Below, piece by piece: positions 1,429-33,176 of a stretch of 35,503 nucleotides of DNA; position 1 is the first letter of the stretch; each line of letters begins with the position of its first letter. The translations under genes and the position numbers were made by a program. Source of the stretch: Kiritimatiellota bacterium. GTDB taxonomy: Bacteria; Verrucomicrobiota; Lentisphaeria; Victivallales; JAADHT01. Under the pieces are notes generated by a model. The model made no database searches, had not been told where the DNA came from, and was given only the letters and a program-made list of their open reading frames with translations. The DNA is taken from assembly GCA_030590505.1 (NCBI GenBank), contig JAUUYH010000003.1, positions 1-35,503 of the forward strand. The letters are read 5' to 3'.

Positions 1429-1592
1429 TCTGTCTCGATGCAAGCATCGTATAATCAACCCCACCTTAATGAGATTAAACTGTCATTGCCTCAACAATAA
1501 TTAATAAAGTTGAAAAGTAACAGTAGACAACTTATCCATTATATATTCAATTTCAAATGAGTTAGGAAGAAATGATAGATATTTTCAAAGAA

Positions 1593-2945
1593 TTACTGCT
1601 TTTGGGAAAAAATCAACGTTTTCCGCCATCTTCTACCAGGTCTATAAAAAAGAGACATATTTCCTTGGCCGTCAAATAGAAGATATTTTTTGTGTTGCGG
1701 CAGATATGATAATAGCAGAGCATCTCCTTTAGTTTTAGGTTTTAGTTTTTCGGGGCTGAAAGAATCAAGTTTCTTAAGTGATTTTAGGTCAATAATTGAT
1801 ACAGCCTTATTCTTATATTCTTCAAAAACAATCGCCTTAACATCATCTCTAAAAAAAAGTTTACGACCCGCAAGAGGTGACAACTGTTTTAAAGAATTAT
1901 CAACTACAAGATTAAGTGGGTTTTGATATGACAACATGGCAAATATATTATTTTCGATACAAAGAGCGGCATTCGGAAGGGATTTTAAATTAATTGGAAT
2001 CTCTTTAAGCTTCATATTATCGGAAAACTTAAAAACCTCAATCTCATTTTTGCCGATAAGAGCAAACTGAGAATCATCCGGTGAAATTACAGTTAGCCCC
2101 TCTTTCTGGTTGCACTCAATGGGAGTCGGCATCTGATCAAAACTTTTAAGTTCAAAGAGATAGAGCTTACTCTTTTTACTACCTGGTTTTAATATAAGTT
2201 TCTCTCCATTTTTTGTAATTGCGAAATTCGCAGAAGATGCACTTATAGGTTGTGATGATAGAGATATCTTACCTGTTTTAAGGTCTATGATATGGAGAGA
2301 TCCCGAATTCAGATCTTTTTGACTCTTCTCCCAGACTACTACCTTTGTTGTAGAAGGTATAAACTTTACCTGCGATAAGAACTTGCCTGAAAAATAGAAG
2401 ATACCATTAATATTAAAATTGTAAGCATTTATCAAAACTAAAAGTGTAGATACCGCTTTACCCTGTGATGAAACATTATCAAGGACAGCAATAAGAGATT
2501 TATCCTGCGATATTACCGCATCTGGCAGCCTGACTCCACCTTTCCCTGAGAAGCTCCAGTTAGGAAGCCATGAATATTTGGTTGAATTCACAACATCTGA
2601 AGCCAGTGACGAAGATGGTGGAGTGCTTTCTATAAATTCCTGATTGTCAAATTTATTTTGAACAAATGCTCCTGATTTGAAAAACTTGCGTCCATCATCA
2701 ACTTGCAGCTCCTCGCTCTTCACCTCTGGTTGGTGAACAGTATTTGAAAATATTTTACTAAACTCATCTGCGTCAACAAGTTTCGCAGCAGAGCTTTCAT
2801 CACTCTCCTCAGAAGAACGACTCTCTGTCATTGAGGGATTGCTCTTTTTAGAAGGCAACTCCTTAGCAGGTGCCTTACCGCACGAAGAAAACAGAGAGAC
2901 GCAAACGAAAACCAAAAGTACATAATATATTTTCATAATAAACAT
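1593..2945 (-). CDS. Predicted lipoprotein, possibly beta-propeller, unknown function
   Basis: 450 aa; lipobox-like signal YVLLVFVCVSLFSSCGK; Ser/Glu-rich linker; repeated beta-strand-like segments. Confidence 0.6.
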   Translation of the reverse strand: MFIMKIYYVLLVFVCVSLFSSCGKAPAKELPSKKSNPSMTESRSSEESDESSAAKLVDADEFSKIFSNTVHQPEVKSEELQVDDGRKFFKSGAFVQNKFDNQEFIESTPPSSSLASDVVNSTKYSWLPNWSFSGKGGVRLPDAVISQDKSLIAVLDNVSSQGKAVSTLLVLINAYNFNINGIFYFSGKFLSQVKFIPSTTKVVVWEKSQKDLNSGSLHIIDLKTGKISLSSQPISASSANFAITKNGEKLILKPGSKKSKLYLFELKSFDQMPTPIECNQKEGLTVISPDDSQFALIGKNEIEVFKFSDNMKLKEIPINLKSLPNAALCIENNIFAMLSYQNPLNLVVDNSLKQLSPLAGRKLFFRDDVKAIVFEEYKNKAVSIIDLKSLKKLDSFSPEKLKPKTKGDALLLSYLPQHKKYLLFDGQGNMSLFYRPGRRWRKTLIFSQKQ

Positions 2946-3138
2946 TCCTGAGATGATAAAAAAATTTCTATTACTTATGCTTTAAAATAGCTGATAGCAG
3001 AGAAAAGGCAAGTTACAGGAGATTAAATTAAAGTAAAATTGATTTTAAACGTTCGATAATTAAACTAGTGAATGAAGAAATTTAAGACAAAAATTAAGGC
3101 AACTATCGACATCTTTCAGCTTTTTCTTCTCTTAGGCC

Positions 3139-3400
3139 ACCAGCGACCTTGTGTCGTTGGAGCCAATGTCGAATTTTCTTCAAAAGAAAAAGCGACATCT
3201 CCCACCCCCTCCCCTCTGCCTTGTTCAAAGGCAGGGGGGAAATGCTAACTTCGCATACCGTAAACAGCAAGACCATTCTTTTTGCTTGCAACGTTATATT
3301 TGTGACGGGTTGAAAACCGTCCTACGTATGTCGGAATTCATTCCGACACTTTTTATGCTGCAAAAACGGAAAGTTTTCTTAGGGACAGGTTGATCAATCC
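3139..3400. repeat. Composite intergenic palindrome cluster
   Basis: CCAGCGAC-cttgt-GTCGTTGG; CCCCTCTGCCTT-gttca-AAGGCAGGGGGG (3211-3239); ATGCTAACTTCGCAT (3242-3256); GACGG..CCGTC (3304-3321); GTCGGAAT-tc-ATTCCGAC (3330-3347); AGGGACAGGTTGATCAATCC. Partly shared with 13317-13455. Confidence 0.85.
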
Positions 3401-3421
3401 CCCCATATTGCCGATTTAATA

Positions 3422-6400
3422 TCATGTTTTTTCTTTAACAAACTGAATATAGATCAATGGTATCACATACAAGGAAAGGATGGTTGATGAGATTAACCCT
3501 CCTACAACCGCGATACCGCAACCTGAACGCAGTTCAGAACCCAGCCCATTTCCCAATGCCATTGGTAGAATCCCTAAAATTGCAGCAATACTTGTCATTG
3601 CAATCGGACGAAATTTTTCTTTAGCCGATTCAAGCATTGCCTGTTTAGGAGGTATGCCTTTTGCGCGCAAGATAATAACATTATCCATAATTAAAATTGC
3701 GTTATTGACAACAATCCCAATCAGCATTACGCCTCCTAGTAATCCCATCATAGATAGTGAAATTCCTGCAATAAACAATGCCCAATAAAGTCCGATCAAG
3801 GCTAAAGGTAGAGTTACAAGAATCATTAATGGTTGAGTCCATGATTCAAGAATTGCGGCAATAAGTAGATATGTGAGAATTGATGCAATGATAATTGCTT
3901 CAAGAAAATCGATTTGAGCTTCACTCATCTTTTCAACTTTGCCAGCAAATCGCATGGTATATCCTTGTGGTAAGACCTCCATTGTAAGTTTACTCAATTG
4001 ATTTACAGCATCCCCTAAAGCTACCCCTGGAGCGGGATTCGCTAATATTTTCACAATGCGTCTTTTTTCTGCTCTTGTAATCTGAATAGGGATAGTACTT
4101 GGGGTAAGGGTAGCAACTGATTCGATACTCAAAGGACGCCCTGACTTTGTCAGAAGGGTATACTCTTTGAGTTGTCCCACTCCTTTTTCTTCTTCCAATT
4201 CTACTCTTATATCATAAGATCTATCTGCAATTTTGTATGTTCCTACTTCTATACCTTCGATATTCCCTCTCAAAAGCATCCCTACAAGTTGTGCTGACAC
4301 TCTCATATCCTGTAATATAGGACGCTTGGGAATAATTTTAATTTCAGGTTTAGGAGCACGAACGGTATTATCCACATCTACCATTAAACCACCTGTTGCC
4401 GCTAGAGATGAAACCTTTTTCCCTAATTCATTAAGCACTTCCAAGTCATCTCCAGCAATTTCCATCTCTATTTCCGAATTTGAACCACCGACAATGCTGG
4501 GAATATTAACAGTTACGATACAATCAGGTTCATTTTGCAACTCATTGCGGAAAAGAGCTGCCATTTGCTCCATGTTCATATCTCGATCATTCTTTTCAGT
4601 TGTTTTGACCATTATTTCGGCTAGATATACTCCTTCGGAAACTTGCCCTAAAGATCCCTGTACTTTACCAATCAAAGTTGATGTCGTAATAACTTCTGGC
4701 AATTTTCTGATACGTTTTTCTATCTTCTTACTCCTTCTAATAGTCTCATCAATGTTGTAGTAAGAGGGATATTCAATTTTGACAGCAAATTCTCCTCTGT
4801 CATTATTAGGGAAAAATCCCATTCCGACGTTGGGAACAATAAAAATGAAGGTAAAAATAAGCAACGCAAAAACAAAAACAAAAACTATCCACGGGCGACG
4901 ACTGTTTTTTTGTAAGCTTTTATAATAATAACCCTCACATGCATTATAAAATATATTCCAATATTTTGTATAAAAGCTCATCAGTTTTTTGTGTATAGGC
5001 ATCTTATTTTTAAGCAATTGCGATGAAAGAAGAGGAGTAAGAGTAAAGCTTATAAAAAGTGAAACAAGAGTTACAGCGGTCATTGTAACAGCAAAAGGAG
5101 CAAAATATCGCCCAATAATTGATGACATTAATGCTATTGGAATAAAAACAACAACATTGGTAAGAGCACTAGCAACAACAGGAAGTGCGACTTCTCCAGT
5201 TCCTTTTCTCGAAGCATCTTTGGGGTCAAGTCCGGCATGAAGTTTCTGAAATACATTTTCGATAACCACAATCGAATTGGTCACAAGAACACCAACAGAA
5301 GTTCCCAATGCAAGTAATGTTGAATTATTAAATGTATAATTAAAATAGCGCATTATCATAAAAGTTATTATCAGCGAGGTTGGCATACTGATCACAACAA
5401 TTATTGTCGAACGAACCTCATGGAGAAACATAAAAAGAATAACAGCGGTCAGAATTATACCGAGAAAAACGCTGTACCATGCGTCAGATACACTCGATTG
5501 AATAAATTCCGCATCATCGGTAAACCAGATCAATTGCACTCCTCCTGGCATGGCATTTGAATCTTTTATCTTCGCAACAAGCTCTTTAATTTTTTGAACC
5601 ACCACTACAGCATTCGCTTCACCTTTTTTCGTTATTTTTAAGTTTACAGCAGGTTTGCCATTGTAGAATGCTCTTGTTCTTTTATCTTTTGACATCATTG
5701 TAACTTCAGCGATATCTCCGATATATATTCTACCGATTTCGCTTTGCCCGATCTCAAGTGCTTTTATTTCATCTAGGCTTTTGAATTCCGCATCAAAAGT
5801 TACACTAATTTCCTCAATCCCAGCATGCAGATTTCCCGAAGGTATTTTAAGATTGTTCAATGCTAATTGCCGGATAACATCAACACTATTCAATCCTGTT
5901 GATGCTAGCTTTTCTTTATCAATTGTAATATGAACTTCTAATTCTTCACCGCCAGTAACCTGCACATCTGCGACGCCTTCGATTGTAGATAATTTATCAG
6001 AGAGAGTTTCGTCAGCATAGTCATAAAGGTTATCTATCGGTAAGTCACCTGTCAATAACAGAGTCGCAATAGGTTTCGCATTAATATCAAATTTTAAAAT
6101 TTTAGGCGTCTCAACGTCACTCGAAAAATCGTTTCGAATCAAGTCAATCTTTTCTCGAACATCAATTGCTGCAATATCAACATTGATAGAGAGCTGGAAC
6201 TCCAAAATTGTTATACACACATTTTCCATACAATTGGAATGTACATGCTTTAAGCCATCCACATTACTAACCGCATCTTCAATCTTCTTTGCGACATCAA
6301 CTTCTATCTCTTCTGGACTGGCTCCGGGATAAATAGTCGTAACTGTCACATACGGGATGTCAATTTCAGGCATATTATTAAGGCCTATTTTTCTATAAGA

Positions 6401-6481
6401 ATAAATCCCCGCAAGAACTAAAGCAATCATAATCGCCGTCATCGCTATTGGACGTTTTATAGAAAAGTTACTTAGAAACAT
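3422..6481 (-). CDS. RND-family efflux transporter permease (HAE1/AcrB-like)
   Basis: 1019 aa; MFLSNFSIKRPIAMTAIMIALVLAGIYSYRKIGLNNMPEIDIPYVTVTTIYPGASPEEIE; GLLGGVMLIGIVVNNAILIMD; two TM blocks with large periplasmic loops. Confidence 0.96.
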   Translation of the reverse strand: MFLSNFSIKRPIAMTAIMIALVLAGIYSYRKIGLNNMPEIDIPYVTVTTIYPGASPEEIEVDVAKKIEDAVSNVDGLKHVHSNCMENVCITILEFQLSINVDIAAIDVREKIDLIRNDFSSDVETPKILKFDINAKPIATLLLTGDLPIDNLYDYADETLSDKLSTIEGVADVQVTGGEELEVHITIDKEKLASTGLNSVDVIRQLALNNLKIPSGNLHAGIEEISVTFDAEFKSLDEIKALEIGQSEIGRIYIGDIAEVTMMSKDKRTRAFYNGKPAVNLKITKKGEANAVVVVQKIKELVAKIKDSNAMPGGVQLIWFTDDAEFIQSSVSDAWYSVFLGIILTAVILFMFLHEVRSTIIVVISMPTSLIITFMIMRYFNYTFNNSTLLALGTSVGVLVTNSIVVIENVFQKLHAGLDPKDASRKGTGEVALPVVASALTNVVVFIPIALMSSIIGRYFAPFAVTMTAVTLVSLFISFTLTPLLSSQLLKNKMPIHKKLMSFYTKYWNIFYNACEGYYYKSLQKNSRRPWIVFVFVFALLIFTFIFIVPNVGMGFFPNNDRGEFAVKIEYPSYYNIDETIRRSKKIEKRIRKLPEVITTSTLIGKVQGSLGQVSEGVYLAEIMVKTTEKNDRDMNMEQMAALFRNELQNEPDCIVTVNIPSIVGGSNSEIEMEIAGDDLEVLNELGKKVSSLAATGGLMVDVDNTVRAPKPEIKIIPKRPILQDMRVSAQLVGMLLRGNIEGIEVGTYKIADRSYDIRVELEEEKGVGQLKEYTLLTKSGRPLSIESVATLTPSTIPIQITRAEKRRIVKILANPAPGVALGDAVNQLSKLTMEVLPQGYTMRFAGKVEKMSEAQIDFLEAIIIASILTYLLIAAILESWTQPLMILVTLPLALIGLYWALFIAGISLSMMGLLGGVMLIGIVVNNAILIMDNVIILRAKGIPPKQAMLESAKEKFRPIAMTSIAAILGILPMALGNGLGSELRSGCGIAVVGGLISSTILSLYVIPLIYIQFVKEKT

Positions 6482-10600: not shown

Positions 10601-13243
10601 ATGTCTATATTAACACAAGGTAAAATTTCAAAAAAGGAGAGTATTATCCTTTTTATTTTCCTTGCAATTATTCTATTCCTCCCAATAGCAGTTCTCTATT
10701 TCTTTAAAAATTCATGGGGAGAACTCTCCTGGCAAAATCACACTGATATCGCAATGCTTGAGTGGACTGGTGCATTTCTCAATATGTTTCTATTTCTTCT
10801 GCTATTCGAAACTTACAGAACAACGGGACGAAATAGATTCAATTTTATTGCCTGTGGCTTTCTATCGATGGGCATATTAAACTTCATATATGCAATAAAT
10901 TCGCCAGGTACTGAGCAGGCTCTCTGGCTACGAACTTTTTCCATTCTTACTGGATCCCTAATCTTTCTTTTTTCCATTCCAGAAAGAAATAAAAAAAGTT
11001 CTGATGTCACTGGTGCTATAATAAAATTTGTGATTCCCACAATCCTCATCTCAGTACTCGCTGCCTGGATCCCTTTTTCCATGAAGCAACTTTTACCTCG
11101 CCTCATTACACCCAAAGGAACGATATCCATATTCGGATCAATCCTGCTACTTATCCCATCTGCATGCTTTTTCATTACCGCTGTAATATGGTTGCATAAA
11201 TATATAACTAATAAAAAAAGTATGGATTTATTAATTGCCATAACACTATGTATTCTTGCCCAAATGACACTCCTGATGCGTGAATCTGAGACCTGGGGGG
11301 TTTTATGGTGGACGTGGCACATTGCATGGATTGTTAACACCTTAATTGCCTGTATTTATATGCTTATTTTTACAGTTAACAGATCTATTGTCTGGAAACT
11401 GGTATTTTCGCTTGGACTTACATTTGCAATGACTGTAATCCTCGCATCTGGAATTATACAAAGCCACTCCACAAAACTTGCAATAATCAACTACCAACAT
11501 CAACTGCATGAACGAAATAAGAAACTTTTAATATCAAATGATATAAATTTAAAATGTGCTGATATGATAATAAATAAGATGGCAGACGATGCCTCCGCAT
11601 TTAGCAACGAAACCCACCCCGAAGAGAAAACATTTAAACTGTGGGTTCAAACATATTTTGACTATCACCAGAACGACTGGATGATTTTATCACAGGAGTA
11701 CGGATTTTACTCTAAAGAAATCGGGATGCATCTGCCACAAGAAACTGCTTCTATAATACCGCAACAACAGAAAATAATAAAAGATTGCTACTCAAAGGCC
11801 ATCTCTAATCCACATTCCACAACATGGTCACATTTTTACTATCTACCAAAAAAACTAAAATGGTACTCCTATGCTTTCCGCCCATTAGGCAAAGGTGATA
11901 TCAATGGTATGTTTTTTATAAATGTAGATGTAACAAACATTGTAACATCACAACTAATCAAAAGCGAAGATGATGCATTGCCAAAAACTATAGTATTTTC
12001 CCTAAAAACAGGTACAATCCTATATGCTTCACTTTCAAATCAAGATTTTCGACACAATTTACAAAACAAAAGAATACCTGCAAATAAATTAGTAAAAAAA
12101 CTTATAGCAACAGCATTCAGCATTAAAAAACATGGTAGAGAAATTTCCGCCACTATTAATGGGGAGAAAATATTCATTTCTGCTCAACCGATAACTCCAC
12201 CTGACTGGGGAGTAATGAAAATTGTAAACGAGAATACATTTCCTGTCCTTAAAATAGAATCCAGATATTTTTTAATCGCTGTTGGAATGGTAACACTTCT
12301 TTGTGGTTTTGTTGTGCTACTTATTCTTCTGCATAAACAGCTATCAAAACCCTTTCATAGCTTGATTGTTGCAACAAAAAAAATTGAACATGGCGATTTT
12401 AATATCAAACTGCCAAGTAAAGATGAATCTGAAATAGGACTTATTTCACGTGCATTTAACCACATGGCGGGAACATTAAAAGAGCTCTACTCAAACCTTG
12501 CTACAACAATTGATGAAAGAACGACAGCCCTGGAAGAAGCAAACAAAGCGGACTCGGCAAAAGTAACCTTTTTCCAGAATGTTAGCCATGAACTAAGAAC
12601 TCCGCTTCACGGAATTTTGAGCTATGCTCGATTGGGGAAAAACTTAACCGTTGAAGAAAATCCTGAAAAAATCAACAAATATTTTAACAATATAAATGAG
12701 AGTGGAGAGCGATTGATGGCAATGCTCGACTCCATTCTCGACCTTGCAAAACTAGAATCAGGGAATATCCAGTTTAACTTCCAACCTACAAATATTTACT
12801 TGATTATAATTAAGGTTAAAAATGAGTTGGAGGCATCCTTTACTGAAAAAAAGATAGAATTAATTCTCGATATTCCTGAAAAAAAACTTATTATTACAAT
12901 GGATTCAGAGATGATTGCCAGAGTTTTTAGAAATCTACTGGGCAACGCGCTAAAGATGTCCACATCAGGATCAAAAATAATAGTAAAATTGGAAAAAGCA
13001 GAGAAGGAAGTGATCATAAGAGTGATAGATGAAGGGCCTGGCATCCCAAAAGAGGAATTTAATAATATTTTTGATAAATTCATACAGGTGGGAGAGGGTA
13101 AAAGAAAAGGTGGTACAGGTCTAGGCCTTCCAATATGCCGAGAAATCATTCATGCACATAATGGCTCCATCGTAGCAAAAAATGGTCCAGAGAAAGGGGC
13201 TTGTTTTACATTTAATATTCCCTTACATACTTTGCACGGATGA
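10601..13243 (+). CDS. Membrane-bound sensor histidine kinase (multi-TM N-terminus, extracytoplasmic sensor, HAMP, HisKA, HATPase_c)
   Basis: 880 aa; HAMP KPFHSLIVATKKIEHGDFNIKLP..DESEIGLISRAFNHMA; H-box FFQNVSHELRTPLHGIL; N-box NLLGNALK; G-boxes DEGPGIP, GGTGLGLPIC. Confidence 0.95.
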   Translation: MSILTQGKISKKESIILFIFLAIILFLPIAVLYFFKNSWGELSWQNHTDIAMLEWTGAFLNMFLFLLLFETYRTTGRNRFNFIACGFLSMGILNFIYAINSPGTEQALWLRTFSILTGSLIFLFSIPERNKKSSDVTGAIIKFVIPTILISVLAAWIPFSMKQLLPRLITPKGTISIFGSILLLIPSACFFITAVIWLHKYITNKKSMDLLIAITLCILAQMTLLMRESETWGVLWWTWHIAWIVNTLIACIYMLIFTVNRSIVWKLVFSLGLTFAMTVILASGIIQSHSTKLAIINYQHQLHERNKKLLISNDINLKCADMIINKMADDASAFSNETHPEEKTFKLWVQTYFDYHQNDWMILSQEYGFYSKEIGMHLPQETASIIPQQQKIIKDCYSKAISNPHSTTWSHFYYLPKKLKWYSYAFRPLGKGDINGMFFINVDVTNIVTSQLIKSEDDALPKTIVFSLKTGTILYASLSNQDFRHNLQNKRIPANKLVKKLIATAFSIKKHGREISATINGEKIFISAQPITPPDWGVMKIVNENTFPVLKIESRYFLIAVGMVTLLCGFVVLLILLHKQLSKPFHSLIVATKKIEHGDFNIKLPSKDESEIGLISRAFNHMAGTLKELYSNLATTIDERTTALEEANKADSAKVTFFQNVSHELRTPLHGILSYARLGKNLTVEENPEKINKYFNNINESGERLMAMLDSILDLAKLESGNIQFNFQPTNIYLIIIKVKNELEASFTEKKIELILDIPEKKLIITMDSEMIARVFRNLLGNALKMSTSGSKIIVKLEKAEKEVIIRVIDEGPGIPKEEFNNIFDKFIQVGEGKRKGGTGLGLPICREIIHAHNGSIVAKNGPEKGACFTFNIPLHTLHG

Positions 13244-14556: not shown

Positions 14557-15882
14557 ATGGATTTAGATCGATTAAAAATTGGAGATCATCAACGCGAAAA
14601 TGGTCGTGGTGGAAAATTAATATTGCTCTTAGTTGCCATCTTCGCATTTATCATTGGTGGAGTTACTGGGTACTATTCCCAATATAAAAGTAGCGGGATT
14701 TTAAAAGTAAAAACTGTTGTTGCAAAATCTTCATCAGGCAGAGCAAGCCTAAAAAGTTTTACAGCTGGTGGGTGGATAGAAGTTGCCACGCCGGAACAGC
14801 CCATTGAAATTAGTTGCAGGATCTCTGAACGAATAGATGAAATTTTAGTAAAAGATGGCGAAATCGTCCAACCCGGACAAGTGCTAGTACGTTTGTACGA
14901 TTGTGACAAAAAAACCGAACTTGAACTTGCTGCAGCCAATCTACTTAAAGCTGAAAGTCATTATAATATGATGAAAAAGGGATACCGAAAAGAAGACTTA
15001 AATATTGCAAAACACACAGTTACTGATTTTAAGGAACGATTGAGAATAGCCAAAGCTCTTCATGATAGAAATATAAAAGTTGGTGAAAACGTGATGTCGG
15101 CAAAAACAATCGATACATCACTTGCGATCTATAAACGTGCTGAGGCAAGATATAATCAGGCAATTTTTGAAATGAAAAAAATGGAAGCTGGTTATCGTGA
15201 AGAGGAGATTTTGGTAGCTAAAGCAGAATACCAAAGAGTGAAAGCGACATTTGACCTTGCTCAGAGATATCTTCAGTACTGTACGATCAAAGTTCCGGAA
15301 TACGGAGCTCCGTTGAAGGTGTTGCATGTTAAAAGAAAAGTTGGTCAATGGGTACGAGTCGACAATAAAAATACTAGCTCCACCCTTCTATCTCTTTATG
15401 ATCCTAAAAAAATGCAAGCACGTGTTGATGTAACTCAAGAGAGCATCGGGGCTGTAACCAAAAATGCACCAGTTATTGTAAGAACAGATGCTCAGCCAAA
15501 TAAAGAGTACAAAGGCAAGGTTTTACGTATAGAACCTCTTGCGGATCTCGCAAAAAACACTATCACCGTACGAGTAAAAATTGATAATCCAGATGATATG
15601 CTATTCCCTGAAATGACATCAAAAATAACATTTTTTGATAAAAAAGGTGAGGTTTCAAAAACCAGTTCTGGGGATATCACTATTCCTAAAATTGCTGTAA
15701 TATCACAACATGAAAAAAGTTATGTATATATTGTTGAAAATAATATGGCAAAAAAAACACCTGTAAAAATCGTAAAACAGAAAAGAGATTCATACGACAT
15801 TACTGGAGTAAAATTCGGACAAAGAGTGATTATTAACAATCTAAGCAAATTAAAAGATGGGGTTGAGGTAGAAGAGTTGTAA
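14557..15882 (+). CDS. HlyD/DevB-like periplasmic adaptor of an ABC exporter
   Basis: 441 aa; N-terminal TM; lipoyl-like half ISERIDEILVKDGEIVQPGQVLVRLYDCD; coiled coil; beta-barrel region. Confidence 0.9.
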   Translation: MDLDRLKIGDHQRENGRGGKLILLLVAIFAFIIGGVTGYYSQYKSSGILKVKTVVAKSSSGRASLKSFTAGGWIEVATPEQPIEISCRISERIDEILVKDGEIVQPGQVLVRLYDCDKKTELELAAANLLKAESHYNMMKKGYRKEDLNIAKHTVTDFKERLRIAKALHDRNIKVGENVMSAKTIDTSLAIYKRAEARYNQAIFEMKKMEAGYREEEILVAKAEYQRVKATFDLAQRYLQYCTIKVPEYGAPLKVLHVKRKVGQWVRVDNKNTSSTLLSLYDPKKMQARVDVTQESIGAVTKNAPVIVRTDAQPNKEYKGKVLRIEPLADLAKNTITVRVKIDNPDDMLFPEMTSKITFFDKKGEVSKTSSGDITIPKIAVISQHEKSYVYIVENNMAKKTPVKIVKQKRDSYDITGVKFGQRVIINNLSKLKDGVEVEEL

Positions 15883-15911: not shown

Positions 15912-16583
15912 ATGAGTAAAAACATTGTGATACGGGATCTTATGAAGATCTATACAAAAGGCGATAATGAAATTCACGCACTTGACCATGTCAGCCTTGA
16001 AGTAGAAGCTGGTGAATTTGTTGCCCTTATGGGACCTTCTGGATCTGGAAAAACAACACTTCTTAATATTATTGCAGGAGTCGATGCCCCTACATCAGGA
16101 CAGGTCTTTGTTGATGAACAAGAAATTACAGGAATGTCGGAAACGCAAAAAACAAAATGGCGCACACGTCATATCGGGTATATTTTTCAGTTTTACAACC
16201 TCTTGCCGGTTCTAACTGCATACGAAAATGTAGAACTCCCTCTCCTGCTGTTGCCGATGTCAAAAAAAGATAGACATGATCATGTTGTTGCTGCACTTGA
16301 AGCGGTCAGCATTCTTGAACGTGCCAAACATTTCCCACGTGAACTATCAGGTGGACAAGAGCAGAGGGTTGCAATTGCTAGAGCAATCGTAACAGATGCT
16401 CATCTCCTAGTAGCAGATGAGCCTACAGGAAACCTGGATGCCGAATCTGAGCAGGAGATAATGACCCTACTGAAGTCATTGAATAAAGAGCTAAACAAGA
16501 CCATTCTTATGGTTACACACGATGACGCCGCTGCGGAATTCGCAGATCGTAAAGTGAAACTTGCAAAAGGAAAATTATTATAG
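15912..16583 (+). CDS. ABC transporter ATP-binding protein (LolD/MacB type)
   Basis: 223 aa; Walker A GPSGSGKTT, signature LSGGQEQRVAIARAI, Walker B LLVADEPTGNLD, H-loop VTHDD. Confidence 0.96.
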   Translation: MSKNIVIRDLMKIYTKGDNEIHALDHVSLEVEAGEFVALMGPSGSGKTTLLNIIAGVDAPTSGQVFVDEQEITGMSETQKTKWRTRHIGYIFQFYNLLPVLTAYENVELPLLLLPMSKKDRHDHVVAALEAVSILERAKHFPRELSGGQEQRVAIARAIVTDAHLLVADEPTGNLDAESEQEIMTLLKSLNKELNKTILMVTHDDAAAEFADRKVKLAKGKLL

Positions 16584-16652: not shown

Positions 16653-17813
16653 ATGCCAGATAAATTTTTACTGTTAATCATTAAAAATATTTTCAGGTCG
16701 AAAGTGAGAGCTTTTGCGACAGTTTTCGGAAGTATAATGGGAGCATTAATAATATGCTTTTTTATCACTGCCGCACACAGTCTTGATCGTCTTATTGATC
16801 AGGTTGGAGGAGAATCCAATCTAATTATTACCCAAAAGGGCCGACACTGACCGACGAGTAACAAGCTCCCCGAAAGTGAGATGAATCAAATCGGGAAGCT
16901 CCTTCCGCAGGTTGCGGAAGTGATGCCTGTAAAATTGCTGATGACTGCTTGTGGCTCAACTACAGATGTTATGGCAATTCATGGAGTCGATAAAGAGATC
17001 TTTACATCGTTTTACAAATACAACATCGCCCCAGATGTGCTGGCTAAATTACGTGCATCAAAAACCTCTGCCATTGCAGAGATTAAAGTCGCAAATCGCT
17101 TTGGCTGGAAAACGGGTGATTTCATAACTCTTGAGGAGTTAAATGGAATAAGTTTTACTCTTGCCGGAACCTTTAAATGCGAAAATGCCTCACAAGATAA
17201 TATTATTATTGCTGGTCGTCGCTTCATTCAGGAGGCGGTAGATGAACAGGGAATAGCAAACCATGTACTAGTACGGCTAAATCCGGGTGCTGATCCAAAT
17301 ACGGTCTGCAAAGAGATTGATGCCCTCTCCTCTCTTACCGTTGATACTTTGACGCAACCTGAGCACCTTTTTCTACTTGCAGCAATTGAGCAATTGGATG
17401 ATCTTATGCGAGTGAGTAGAATTATTATTTCAATCATTCTAATGGTAATGCTTGTTGCAATAGGCAACGCCATATCCATGGGAGCTAGAGAGCGATACCC
17501 TGAAATGGGAGTCCTCAGAACTCTTGGATTTTCTAAGATGGCGATTATGCTACTAATCATAGGTGAAGCTGTTATATACACCCTGACTGGTGGTATCATC
17601 GGTGCATTAATTGTTCAGGGATTTATTGTTTCTGGAATTACTGACACCCTGCCAACGTGGGGCACTGCTGTCAGTATCTCAATGACTGCTGATTTCTATA
17701 CCTGGGCTGTAACTCTCGGAATAGTTTCACTTGCTGGTTTTTTCGGAAGTATTATACCTGCATGGCAGGCATCTCGTATAAATATCTGTAATGCAATAAG
17801 GAAAAGTGAATAA
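16653..17813 (+). CDS. FtsX-like ABC permease with an in-frame TGA at 16848-16850 (candidate selenoprotein; otherwise nonsense-interrupted)
   Basis: ORFs 16653-16850 and 16881-17813 are in the same frame. Reading through gives ...SNLIITQKGRH[TGA]PTSNKLPESEMNQIGKLLPQVAEVMPVKLLMTACGSTTDVMAIHGVDKEIF... and a 386-residue permease, the same size class as the next gene (387 aa). Confidence 0.8.
16864..16900 (+). promoter_or_regulatory. bSECIS-like hairpin downstream of the in-frame TGA
   Basis: AGCTCCCCGA (16864-16873) pairs with TCGGGAAGCT (16891-16900), 9/10 pairs; inner UGA/UCA stem caps a GAUGAA apical loop starting with G, 29 nt after the UGA. Confidence 0.5.
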
Positions 17814-18976
17814 TGCGGATAATGACAAAATATGCTATAAGGAATCTATTACGCAGAAAATGGCGCACGCTAATGACTATTGGAGGATTATTCCTATCCA
17901 TTTTTGCTATAATTCTTATGTTTTCGCTATCTCGAGGATTGGCGATCAGGACAACAGCAACAGGCGATGACAAGAATATTCTTTTAATTAGCCGTAAGGG
18001 AAAAAGTGTAATGTTCGGTTCTATTAAAGGTGATGAACTTGTACACCTTATGCAGCTTAAAGATATTGCGGAAGACGCAAATGGAGACCAACTGATCTCT
18101 CCTGAAGTAATGCATGTAAGCATAGCCGAAAGTGACGATAAAAAAGGAAAAGCACCTTTAAGCATTCGGGGTGTCAGCAATATTGCCTATGAAGTTCATA
18201 GAAAAGTAAAATTAATTGAGGGCAATTTTCCGGAGAATGCCAATGAGATAATGGTGGGAAAAACCGTTTATATAAAACTAGGATTAACTGAGGATACCTT
18301 AAAAATTGGAAGTTATATTAAATTTGAAAATGTCGAGTGGTTAATATGTGGAAAATTTGAGGCAAATAACAGTCTGTTTGAATCGGAATTATGGTGCGTT
18401 GACGAAGATCTTATGACAATACTTAAACGCAGAACTCATACATTTGCAGTCATTGCGTTTACGGATAAACAAGCTGCAGAGAAAGGATTAACCTCTTTTT
18501 CAAAAACAGGAGCGATAAGTAGGTATTTTAAAGGTTGGATTGAGAACACTTATTATCGTGACTTCTCAAAAAATCTCCAATGGATTGTCTGGATATCATT
18601 TATCACATCTATTGCTGTTCTAGTTGCTGCGATTCTTATCGGAATAAATACTATGTACACTGCAATTGTAAACAGAATGCGTGAGTTTGGAACACTAAGA
18701 GTCCTAGGATTCAGCAGAATTGATATAATTGCAACTCTGATCTTTGAATCAATCTTTCTTGCATTACTTGGCGGAATTCTCGGTATAATTCCAGGCTTGT
18801 TCCTAAATGGGGTTCCGGTAAAAATTGCGAATAGCGCATTTTCTCTAATCGTTGATTCATCTGTAATTATTGCCGGGCTTTCTGTAACTCTATTGATCGG
18901 CCTGCTAGGTGCAATACTTCCATCTATGCATATCATTAAAAATACAATTATTGCATCCTTAAATACTCGACGTTGA
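17813..18976 (+). CDS. FtsX-like ABC transporter permease
   Basis: 387 aa; four TM segments with large extracytoplasmic domain; overlaps the preceding stop codon; MREFGTLRVLGFSRIDIIATLIFESIFLALLGGILG. Confidence 0.92.
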   Translation: MRIMTKYAIRNLLRRKWRTLMTIGGLFLSIFAIILMFSLSRGLAIRTTATGDDKNILLISRKGKSVMFGSIKGDELVHLMQLKDIAEDANGDQLISPEVMHVSIAESDDKKGKAPLSIRGVSNIAYEVHRKVKLIEGNFPENANEIMVGKTVYIKLGLTEDTLKIGSYIKFENVEWLICGKFEANNSLFESELWCVDEDLMTILKRRTHTFAVIAFTDKQAAEKGLTSFSKTGAISRYFKGWIENTYYRDFSKNLQWIVWISFITSIAVLVAAILIGINTMYTAIVNRMREFGTLRVLGFSRIDIIATLIFESIFLALLGGILGIIPGLFLNGVPVKIANSAFSLIVDSSVIIAGLSVTLLIGLLGAILPSMHIIKNTIIASLNTRR

Positions 18977-20131
18977 TTATTTAAGGATCTCTGTTATTTT
19001 TTCAATAAAAGTATCGATCTCTTTTAATGTATTGTATTTACTTAAAGAGAGACGGATAGCTGCGAATCTTCGTTTCTTCTCTAGTTGCATTGCAGTTAAG
19101 ACATGTGAGGCCCCAGGGGTTGCGGACTTGCATGCAGCACCTGTGCCTACAGCAACTCCCTGTTCATCGAGCAAGGAGACAAGTGATGTAGAATCCAGCT
19201 CAGAAAAACTTACATTCAGGGTATTTGGCAAAGATTCGATCATGGAGCCATTAAAGAGTGCATCAGGGCATGATTGTTCAATTTTCTCAATCATATACTC
19301 TTTCAAAGTTTGCATAGCATCAATATCACCCTGCAGATTATTTGTAATCATTTCGCATGCTTTACCAAGAGCTACAATTCCTGGCACATTTTCAGTTCCT
19401 GCACGCAGGTGGTTCTCATGAGATCCCCCAAAGAGGATAGGTTTTATTTTTATGCCTTTGCGAATGTACAATGCACCTACGCCTTTCGGGGCATATATTT
19501 TATGAGCAGAAAGCGAGAGAAGGTCAACACCAAGCTCTTCGACATCGACTTTCATTTTACCGATAGCCTGTACTGCGTCTGTATGAAAAATAAGATTATG
19601 TGAATGTGCGATGTTCGCAAGTTCTTTAATCTTTTGAACAGTACCTGTTTCGTTATTCGCAACCATTATTGACACTAAAAAAGTGTTATCGCAAATTGCA
19701 TTTTGTAACTCTTTGGGATCAAGAAGTCCATCAATTCCTACAGGCAAATATGTAACTTTAAAGCCGCATTTTTCAAGTTCACGACAAGTGTTCAGAACAC
19801 TACCATGTTCAGTAGATGATGTAATGATATGTCCATTATCAGATGTTGATTCTGCAAACCTTGCTCGTCCTCCAGTGTGGCTCGCAGCTATTCCAAAGAG
19901 AGCAAGATTATTTGCTTCAGTACCACTACTAGTAAAAACGATATTTTCAGCATCACTATTCAAAAGCTGTGCCACTCGCTTACGGGCACAATCAAGAGCT
20001 GCCCCAGCATTGCGCGAGAAAGAGTGCATACTAGAAGGATTACCGAAGGATTCTCTAAAAAAGGGCAACATCTCTTCAAGAACTTCTTGAGCTACTGCCG
20101 TACTAGCATTATTATCAAAATATATACTCAT
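18977..20131 (-). CDS. Cysteine desulfurase, NifS/IscS family
   Basis: 384 aa; IYFDNNASTAVAQEVLEEMLP; PLP-Lys SLSAHKIYAPKGVGALYIRKG; RAGTENVPGIVALGKA; GTGAACKSATPGASHVL. Confidence 0.95.
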   Translation of the reverse strand: MSIYFDNNASTAVAQEVLEEMLPFFRESFGNPSSMHSFSRNAGAALDCARKRVAQLLNSDAENIVFTSSGTEANNLALFGIAASHTGGRARFAESTSDNGHIITSSTEHGSVLNTCRELEKCGFKVTYLPVGIDGLLDPKELQNAICDNTFLVSIMVANNETGTVQKIKELANIAHSHNLIFHTDAVQAIGKMKVDVEELGVDLLSLSAHKIYAPKGVGALYIRKGIKIKPILFGGSHENHLRAGTENVPGIVALGKACEMITNNLQGDIDAMQTLKEYMIEKIEQSCPDALFNGSMIESLPNTLNVSFSELDSTSLVSLLDEQGVAVGTGAACKSATPGASHVLTAMQLEKKRRFAAIRLSLSKYNTLKEIDTFIEKITEILK

Positions 20132-27682: not shown

Positions 27683-27943
27683 CTACCCCCCCGAAGTTGT
27701 GACTTGTGCGGTGGCTTCGGGGGGTTCTATAAAATCAGGGTGGCAATGGATTGCCGACAGAAAGGAGATTTGTTCCGGGTCGGTGATGTATTCGGCTTCA
27801 GGTGAACCGTTGCTTTTCAGGGGAAGTTTAGGGTCTCCATTTTTTACTTTATTATCTCCACTGATGCAATCCATATCGTAATATCTGTCAAAATCTTGAC
27901 TCATACGAATAACATTTAAACTCTTTCTCTTCCGCTTGATCAT
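27683..27943 (-). pseudogene. Mosaic ORF containing a fragment of a RecG-like/AlbA_2-type protein C-terminus
   Basis: KSNGSPEAEYITDPEQISFLSAIHCHPDFI matches KNNGSPEAEYITDPERISFLSVIHCHSDFI in the longer ORF at the right edge; DRYYDMDCISGDNKVKNG is shared with ORF 32898-33176. Confidence 0.65.
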
Positions 27944-32897: not shown

Positions 32898-33176
32898 TTA
32901 TTCTAGTAGTTTTACAAATTCTAATGATATTTTCCTAGTAACATCATTATCTTTAAACCATTCAGGATGCTGCTCTTCGATTAATTTCAATTCCAGTTTC
33001 CCCCATTTGTCTTCTGGGGGAAGTTTACGGGCTCCATTTTTTACTTTATTATCTCCACCGATGCAATCCATATCATAATATCTGTCAAAACCTGCGAAAT
33101 TCGCAAGTAATCCGATAAGATCAACCAAGATGGGATCTTCTAATATTTTTTTATCGTTTTCAGCAAAAGGGAACAA
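32898..33176 (-). pseudogene. Small ORF/fragment sharing DRYYDMDCIGGDNKVKNG with 27683-27943
   Basis: 92 aa; ~77-bp nucleotide repeat (33017-33093 versus 27820-27896). Confidence 0.45.

Follow-up and report, generated by a model that had tools for sequence, protein, structure and literature searches.

An in-frame TGA within an otherwise intact transporter operon raises the question of whether the gene is broken, misread, or carries an additional amino acid at that position. Such a codon occurs in the 35,503-nucleotide stretch of Kiritimatiellota DNA analysed here (hereafter the window), in a frame on the plus strand (16653–17813) that encodes a 386-residue ABC transporter permease (permease 1). 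The TGA at codon 66 (16848–16850) is the sole interruption of this frame, which reads ...LIITQKGRH(TGA)PTSNKLPE...; the first-pass annotation had described the frame in these terms and proposed selenocysteine (Sec) as the inserted residue, and its description is confirmed in the sequence, with each of its suggested checks that was run here favouring the proposal. From the comparative sequence evidence presented below, we assign a probability of roughly 0.93 to the reading that this TGA encodes selenocysteine (Sec66) in an exporter permease.

Permease 1 is the third gene of a single plus-strand operon in the order membrane fusion protein, ATPase, permease 1 and permease 2. The first gene (14557–15882) encodes a 441-residue periplasmic adaptor of the HlyD/RND_mfp type, with matches to Pfam HlyD_D23 and HlyD_3 and a TIGR01730 score above the cut-off. 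It is followed by a 223-residue LolD/MacB-type ABC ATPase (15912–16583; Pfam ABC_tran, E = 2e-37), encoded separately from the permeases, whose nearest NCBIfam models are LolD, DarD and DevA, all below cut-off. Permease 1 itself matches both MacB_PCD and FtsX above the Pfam gathering cut-offs and has no NCBIfam equivalog. Its AlphaFold2 model (mean pLDDT 89.7) retrieved LolE as the top Foldseek hit, with LolE and MacB both at E ~1e-16 and the other relatives being type VII permeases. Permease 2 (387 residues, 17813–18976) has the same MacB_PCD and FtsX composition by Pfam and, judging by its Cys positions, lacks the Sec/Cys pair described below. The permease 1 stop and the ATG of permease 2 overlap (TAATG). 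Translation of permease 2 is therefore probably linked to read-through of the upstream UGA, and stopping at that UGA would probably harm permease 2 as well. Relatives share this gene order, and an outer-membrane efflux (OEP, TolC-like) gene lies in the cluster of four of them (L052, L080, L058 and L060), with none linked in the window; the components of a tripartite pump are thus represented by the adaptor in the window operon and the OEP gene in the relatives' clusters. PADLOC returned only generic weak matches, to the ATPase and permease 2. A NifS/IscS-like cysteine desulfurase gene (18977–20131, minus strand) ends directly against permease 2, and is absent beside the operon in the relatives examined.

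Searches of 388 genomes of the phylum recovered homologs in 48, one of which (G169) also carries TGA at codon 66, and with further searches the number of distinct TGA forms rose to seven: the window gene, three from Phycisphaerae metagenome-assembled genomes (MAGs; L052, L053 and L054), one from the 'Lentisphaerae' MAG G169 (L055), one from a Planctomycetota MAG (L056), and one from genome G388 (L062). All derive from Planctomycetota/Lentisphaerota-type genomes. The 58 distinct homologs use only three codons at position 66: TGA (7), TGC (35) and TGT (16). The proposal that Sec replaces a conserved Cys is therefore supported: the aligned residue is Cys in 51 distinct homologs and TGA in the six relatives, never Trp or anything else, and most homologs ('RFCPxTSRLPE') fit the motif given in the first-pass annotation, R-[FWY]-C-P-x-[TS]-S. 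In a 57-row alignment, Cys/Sec66, Pro67 and Cys100 (codon TGT, 16950–16952 in the window, plus strand) are invariant. The other six TGA forms share 38–49% identity with the window protein, and in the tree all seven form one clade (support 100/99), with the nearest Cys form (L024) coming from genome G119.

These comparisons bear directly on the simplest rival explanation, namely that the TGA is a real stop, either in a decaying pseudogene or separating a 65-residue product from an internally started 310-residue permease. A split gene is what automatic annotation would deliver by default, and a mechanically called open reading frame does begin at 16881; such an internal start, however, would cost the protein its first transmembrane segment. 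A stop would also have to be reconciled with a TGA kept at the identical codon in seven genes of one old clade despite their divergence, with Cys as every alternative at that codon, and with frame and protein-level constraint preserved on both sides. Between L052 and L053, for instance, differences after the TGA number 31, 11 and 121 at the first, second and third codon positions; since they fall mostly at third positions, the part beyond the TGA is under protein-level selection. Together with the presence of sel genes in all seven genomes, this makes a genuine stop highly improbable.

The machinery required for Sec insertion is present where it would be needed. The window's own genome (2.54 Mb, 86% complete) encodes tRNA-Sec (selC), SelB, SelA and two SelD proteins, so that all four genes whose presence had been suggested as a check were found. 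Both selA and selC were recovered from all six other Sec-form genomes; in G119, the genome of the nearest Cys form, neither was found. This complement also weighs against the TGA being read as Trp, Gly or Cys through a recoded genetic code or general readthrough. UGA is generally known to allow near-cognate readthrough, and this lends that alternative its only, non-specific, backing. Of 24 genes predicted in the window, 7 end in TGA; the codon has therefore not been reassigned and the code is standard, and the residue aligned with the TGA is always Cys and never Trp or Gly; we therefore give this alternative very little credence. As a separate observation, the second selD of the window's genome (L019, contig C35, ~1465–2490, minus strand) has an in-frame TGA of its own within ...KCAG(TGA)AGKLKPG..., at the site known to hold Sec or Cys in SelD; its product is likely a Sec-containing SelD, and the other copy (L018) is intact.

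Selenocysteine at codon 66 would further call for a recoding signal in the mRNA, and the sequence 3' of the UGA offers two candidate hairpins. In hairpin 1 (16864–16900, plus strand), which starts thirteen nucleotides past the TGA, AGCTCCCCGA (16864–16873) pairs with TCGGGAAGCT (16891–16900) with one mismatch, enclosing an inner UGA/UCA stem and a GAUGAA apical loop that begins 29 nt after the UGA, just as the first reading of the sequence had drawn it; folding, covariation and a synonymous null mark it as a probable bacterial SECIS (bSECIS) element. Hairpin 2 (CTTCCGC/GCGGAAG, 16902–16920, plus strand), missing from that account, lies directly 3' of hairpin 1 and beyond the usual 16–37 nt range. 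It is as conserved as hairpin 1, being paired in 7/7 Sec forms with one compensatory change, and the two may possibly constitute a tandem Sec-insertion signal.

Taken as a single sequence, hairpin 1 scores only slightly better than dinucleotide shuffles (z = -1.2 to -2.0). What lifts it above chance is comparative: a TGA column that is kept, Cys elsewhere, covariation, and pairing beyond a synonymous null. When aligned, the seven Sec forms fold as two consecutive hairpins, with 95.2% of cells paired and four pairs changed on both sides (7 cells); the observed paired percentage and covariation score were each matched by 0 of 500 shuffles, and the signal is lost on sliding the pairing partners by 1–3 columns. 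Since the region is coding, synonymous recodings of each Sec-form sequence, drawn from that sequence's codon usage, served as an additional null. Hairpins 1 and 2 showed 51 and 49 pairs where this null gave means of 35.9 and 35.2, and 0 of 2000 recodings reached the observed value for either hairpin. The covariation among orthologs that had been put forward as a check of the stem is present. The corresponding regions of the Cys homologs fold no better than shuffles (mean z of +0.27 and -0.05), whereas every Sec form has a hairpin z of -1.66 or lower; the Mann-Whitney p values for this difference (3e-9 and 4e-8) are indicative only, as the sequences are phylogenetically non-independent.

The general bSECIS model places the apical loop 16–37 nt from the UGA, with a G in the first two loop positions and a minimum free energy (MFE) of at most -7.5 (PMC13188914). 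The window fits it (29 nt, GAUGAA, -14.3), as do five of the seven Sec forms in all; however, 32 of the 51 Cys homologs pass too, and the generic rule is thus no evidence by itself; the strict apical-G rule, as implemented here, is failed by two of the seven Sec forms. An Rfam scan of 16800–17000 yielded chance-level matches only.

The same comparative pattern addresses a sequencing or assembly error that turned TGC or TGT into TGA. The codon is one base away from those for Cys, and the genomes are largely metagenome assemblies; the TGA nevertheless recurs in seven independent contigs, and a covarying downstream structure accompanies it only in those. Recurrence of the same TGA across independent assemblies renders such an error, for which the first-pass annotation had pointed to raw reads, very unlikely, to the point of being negligible.

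The phyletic distribution points to horizontal acquisition of the gene. Among the 137 genomes of its order and the 198 of its class, the window's genome is the only one in which a copy was found, and the class to which L056 belongs yielded no additional Sec form. Because order and class hold no other copy, the gene was probably acquired horizontally; mis-binning of the window contig is less likely than such acquisition. With a GC content of 0.37, the window lies near other loci from the same genome (0.38–0.40) and well away from the other Sec-form loci (0.53–0.71), making both a recent transfer and gross mis-binning unlikely.

In G388, the exporter is found together with the machinery for Sec insertion. 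On contig C133 (L080, 1138–12098), selD, selB, selA, the Sec exporter operon and tRNA-Sec all lie within ~11 kb. Three sel genes run leftward: selA (4727–6130), which starts beside the adaptor gene, selB (2742–4727), and a selD (1138–2721) whose product carries a C-terminal fusion to a carboxymuconolactone decarboxylase (CMD, AhpD-like) domain. The exporter operon runs rightward up to the outer-membrane efflux gene at 11863, after which follows tRNA-Sec (12002–12098). Contig C38 of this genome carries one further copy each of selA and selC, and the estimated contamination of G388 is 5%, so C133 may derive from another organism; the physical linkage of the sel genes with the exporter holds whichever organism owns the contig. 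This cluster represents Sec machinery packaged with one user gene and bears on how the Sec trait spreads.

With regard to function, SelB carrying Sec-tRNA(Sec) would recode the UGA under the direction of the downstream hairpin or hairpins, yielding a full-length permease with Sec66, and the two permeases, the LolD-type ATPase and the HlyD-type adaptor would act together as a MacAB-like (type VII, mechanotransmission) exporter. By homology with MacB, Sec66 is expected to be periplasmic, just past the first strand (residues 57–61) of the periplasmic domain, with Cys100 just past the second (87–97); as these two parallel strands are joined by a helix (74–83), residues 66 and 100 would fall at the same edge. 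Predicted to be close, they could form a reversible selenenylsulfide that gates export or senses redox state, or alternatively a selenolate/thiolate site at which the exported substrate, be it a soft metal, a metalloid or a thiol-reactive compound, is bound. Sec66 would be a quicker or softer equivalent of the ancestral Cys. Of the UxxS site originally proposed, the substitution of Sec for Cys is supported; as a working pair, UxxS appears less likely than Sec66 with the invariant Cys100.

Our best guess is a periplasmic Sec66–Cys100 site of redox or soft-metal character, and we give specific chemistry of this pair an even chance. Its main competitor accepts Sec insertion and assigns Sec66 a structural or redox-sensing role in place of substrate chemistry or metal binding. 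The position is invariantly Cys or Sec in many species, and no metal, redox or Se-supply gene recurs beside the operon across the neighbourhoods examined; for metal and redox genes, this lack of linkage favours such a role. A purely structural disulfide, however, would not need selenium, and Sec tends to be retained at sites that depend on the reactivity of the selenol. We consider this competing role a substantial possibility, though appreciably below even odds.

Comparison with known systems places the operon near, but outside, several established families. Like MacAB-TolC (MacB, PDB 5nik/5gko), it combines the FtsX/MacB_PCD fold with a HlyD-type adaptor, a MacB/LolD-type ATPase and, in the relatives' clusters, a TolC-like partner; it differs in encoding ATPase and permease separately, in having two different permeases, and in the Sec/Cys pair in the periplasmic domain of permease 1, and its score against the MacB equivalog PRK10535 is 17.8 bits with a cut-off of 966. 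LolCDE resembles it in pairing two FtsX-type permeases with one LolD-like ATPase, as does the top Foldseek rank of LolE. However, an adaptor gene lies in the operon and an outer-membrane efflux gene in relatives, and the scores fall below cut-off for both LolC/LolE (TIGR02212; 21.4 versus 362 bits) and LolD (227 versus 308 bits).

Among selenoproteins, the sole ABC permease in a 2026 review of the prokaryotic families is SaoP, a subunit predicted to contain Sec; it is listed with the substrate-binding subunits SaoB and SaoX, which to us suggests that the Sao system is an importer (PMC13188914). These known Sec-containing ABC proteins thus form a system distinct from the present exporter. SaoP (NF040733) is not among the family matches of permease 1 at E ≤ 0.001. 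The SO_0444-family Cu/Zn efflux transporter (NF033936) and other transport-associated selenoproteins share with permease 1 a Sec in a membrane efflux protein and possibly soft metals as substrates (PMC13188914), but the SO_0444 family is unrelated and likewise absent from the permease 1 matches. FtsX and MacB are mentioned nowhere in the review (PMC13188914). The open-licence literature covered here yielded no paper joining a selenoprotein with FtsX, and only unrelated papers joining one with MacB or an ABC exporter. Within this literature, the novelty that the first-pass annotation suggested for an exporter permease is supported; for a Sec-containing ABC permease as such, SaoP is a precedent. 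Given the silence of the review and the absence of a relevant paper in the literature covered, we rate these MacB-like tripartite ABC exporters with Sec as a new selenoprotein family.

The reading that joins all of these elements, an unrecognised family of Sec-dependent MacB-like tripartite exporters with a conserved tandem-hairpin signal, able to travel with selD-selB-selA/selC, in which a Sec66–Cys100 selenenylsulfide or metal site drives or gates export, remains tentative, at slightly less than an even chance. If it is true, the selenocysteine trait could be maintained or disseminated in part through the exporter. The family would add an FtsX/MacB-type exporter subunit to a bacterial selenoproteome otherwise dominated by redox enzymes, and it singles out residue 66, along with Cys100, as a site that is likely to be chemically active in a widely distributed family of exporters, whereby the function of the Cys forms becomes testable too. 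More such genes are probably hidden, because automatic annotation would cut them at the TGA.

Two further features of the window lie outside the operon. ARAGORN called a tRNA-Trp at 6178–6265 (minus strand), within the beginning of an RND transporter gene (3422–6481, minus strand); this is probably a false positive, and would otherwise be an odd overlap. Two short open reading frames (27683–27943 and 32898–33176, both minus strand) have a repeated segment in common (FDRYYDMDCI-GDNKVKNG--KLP) and perhaps represent a small duplicated family.
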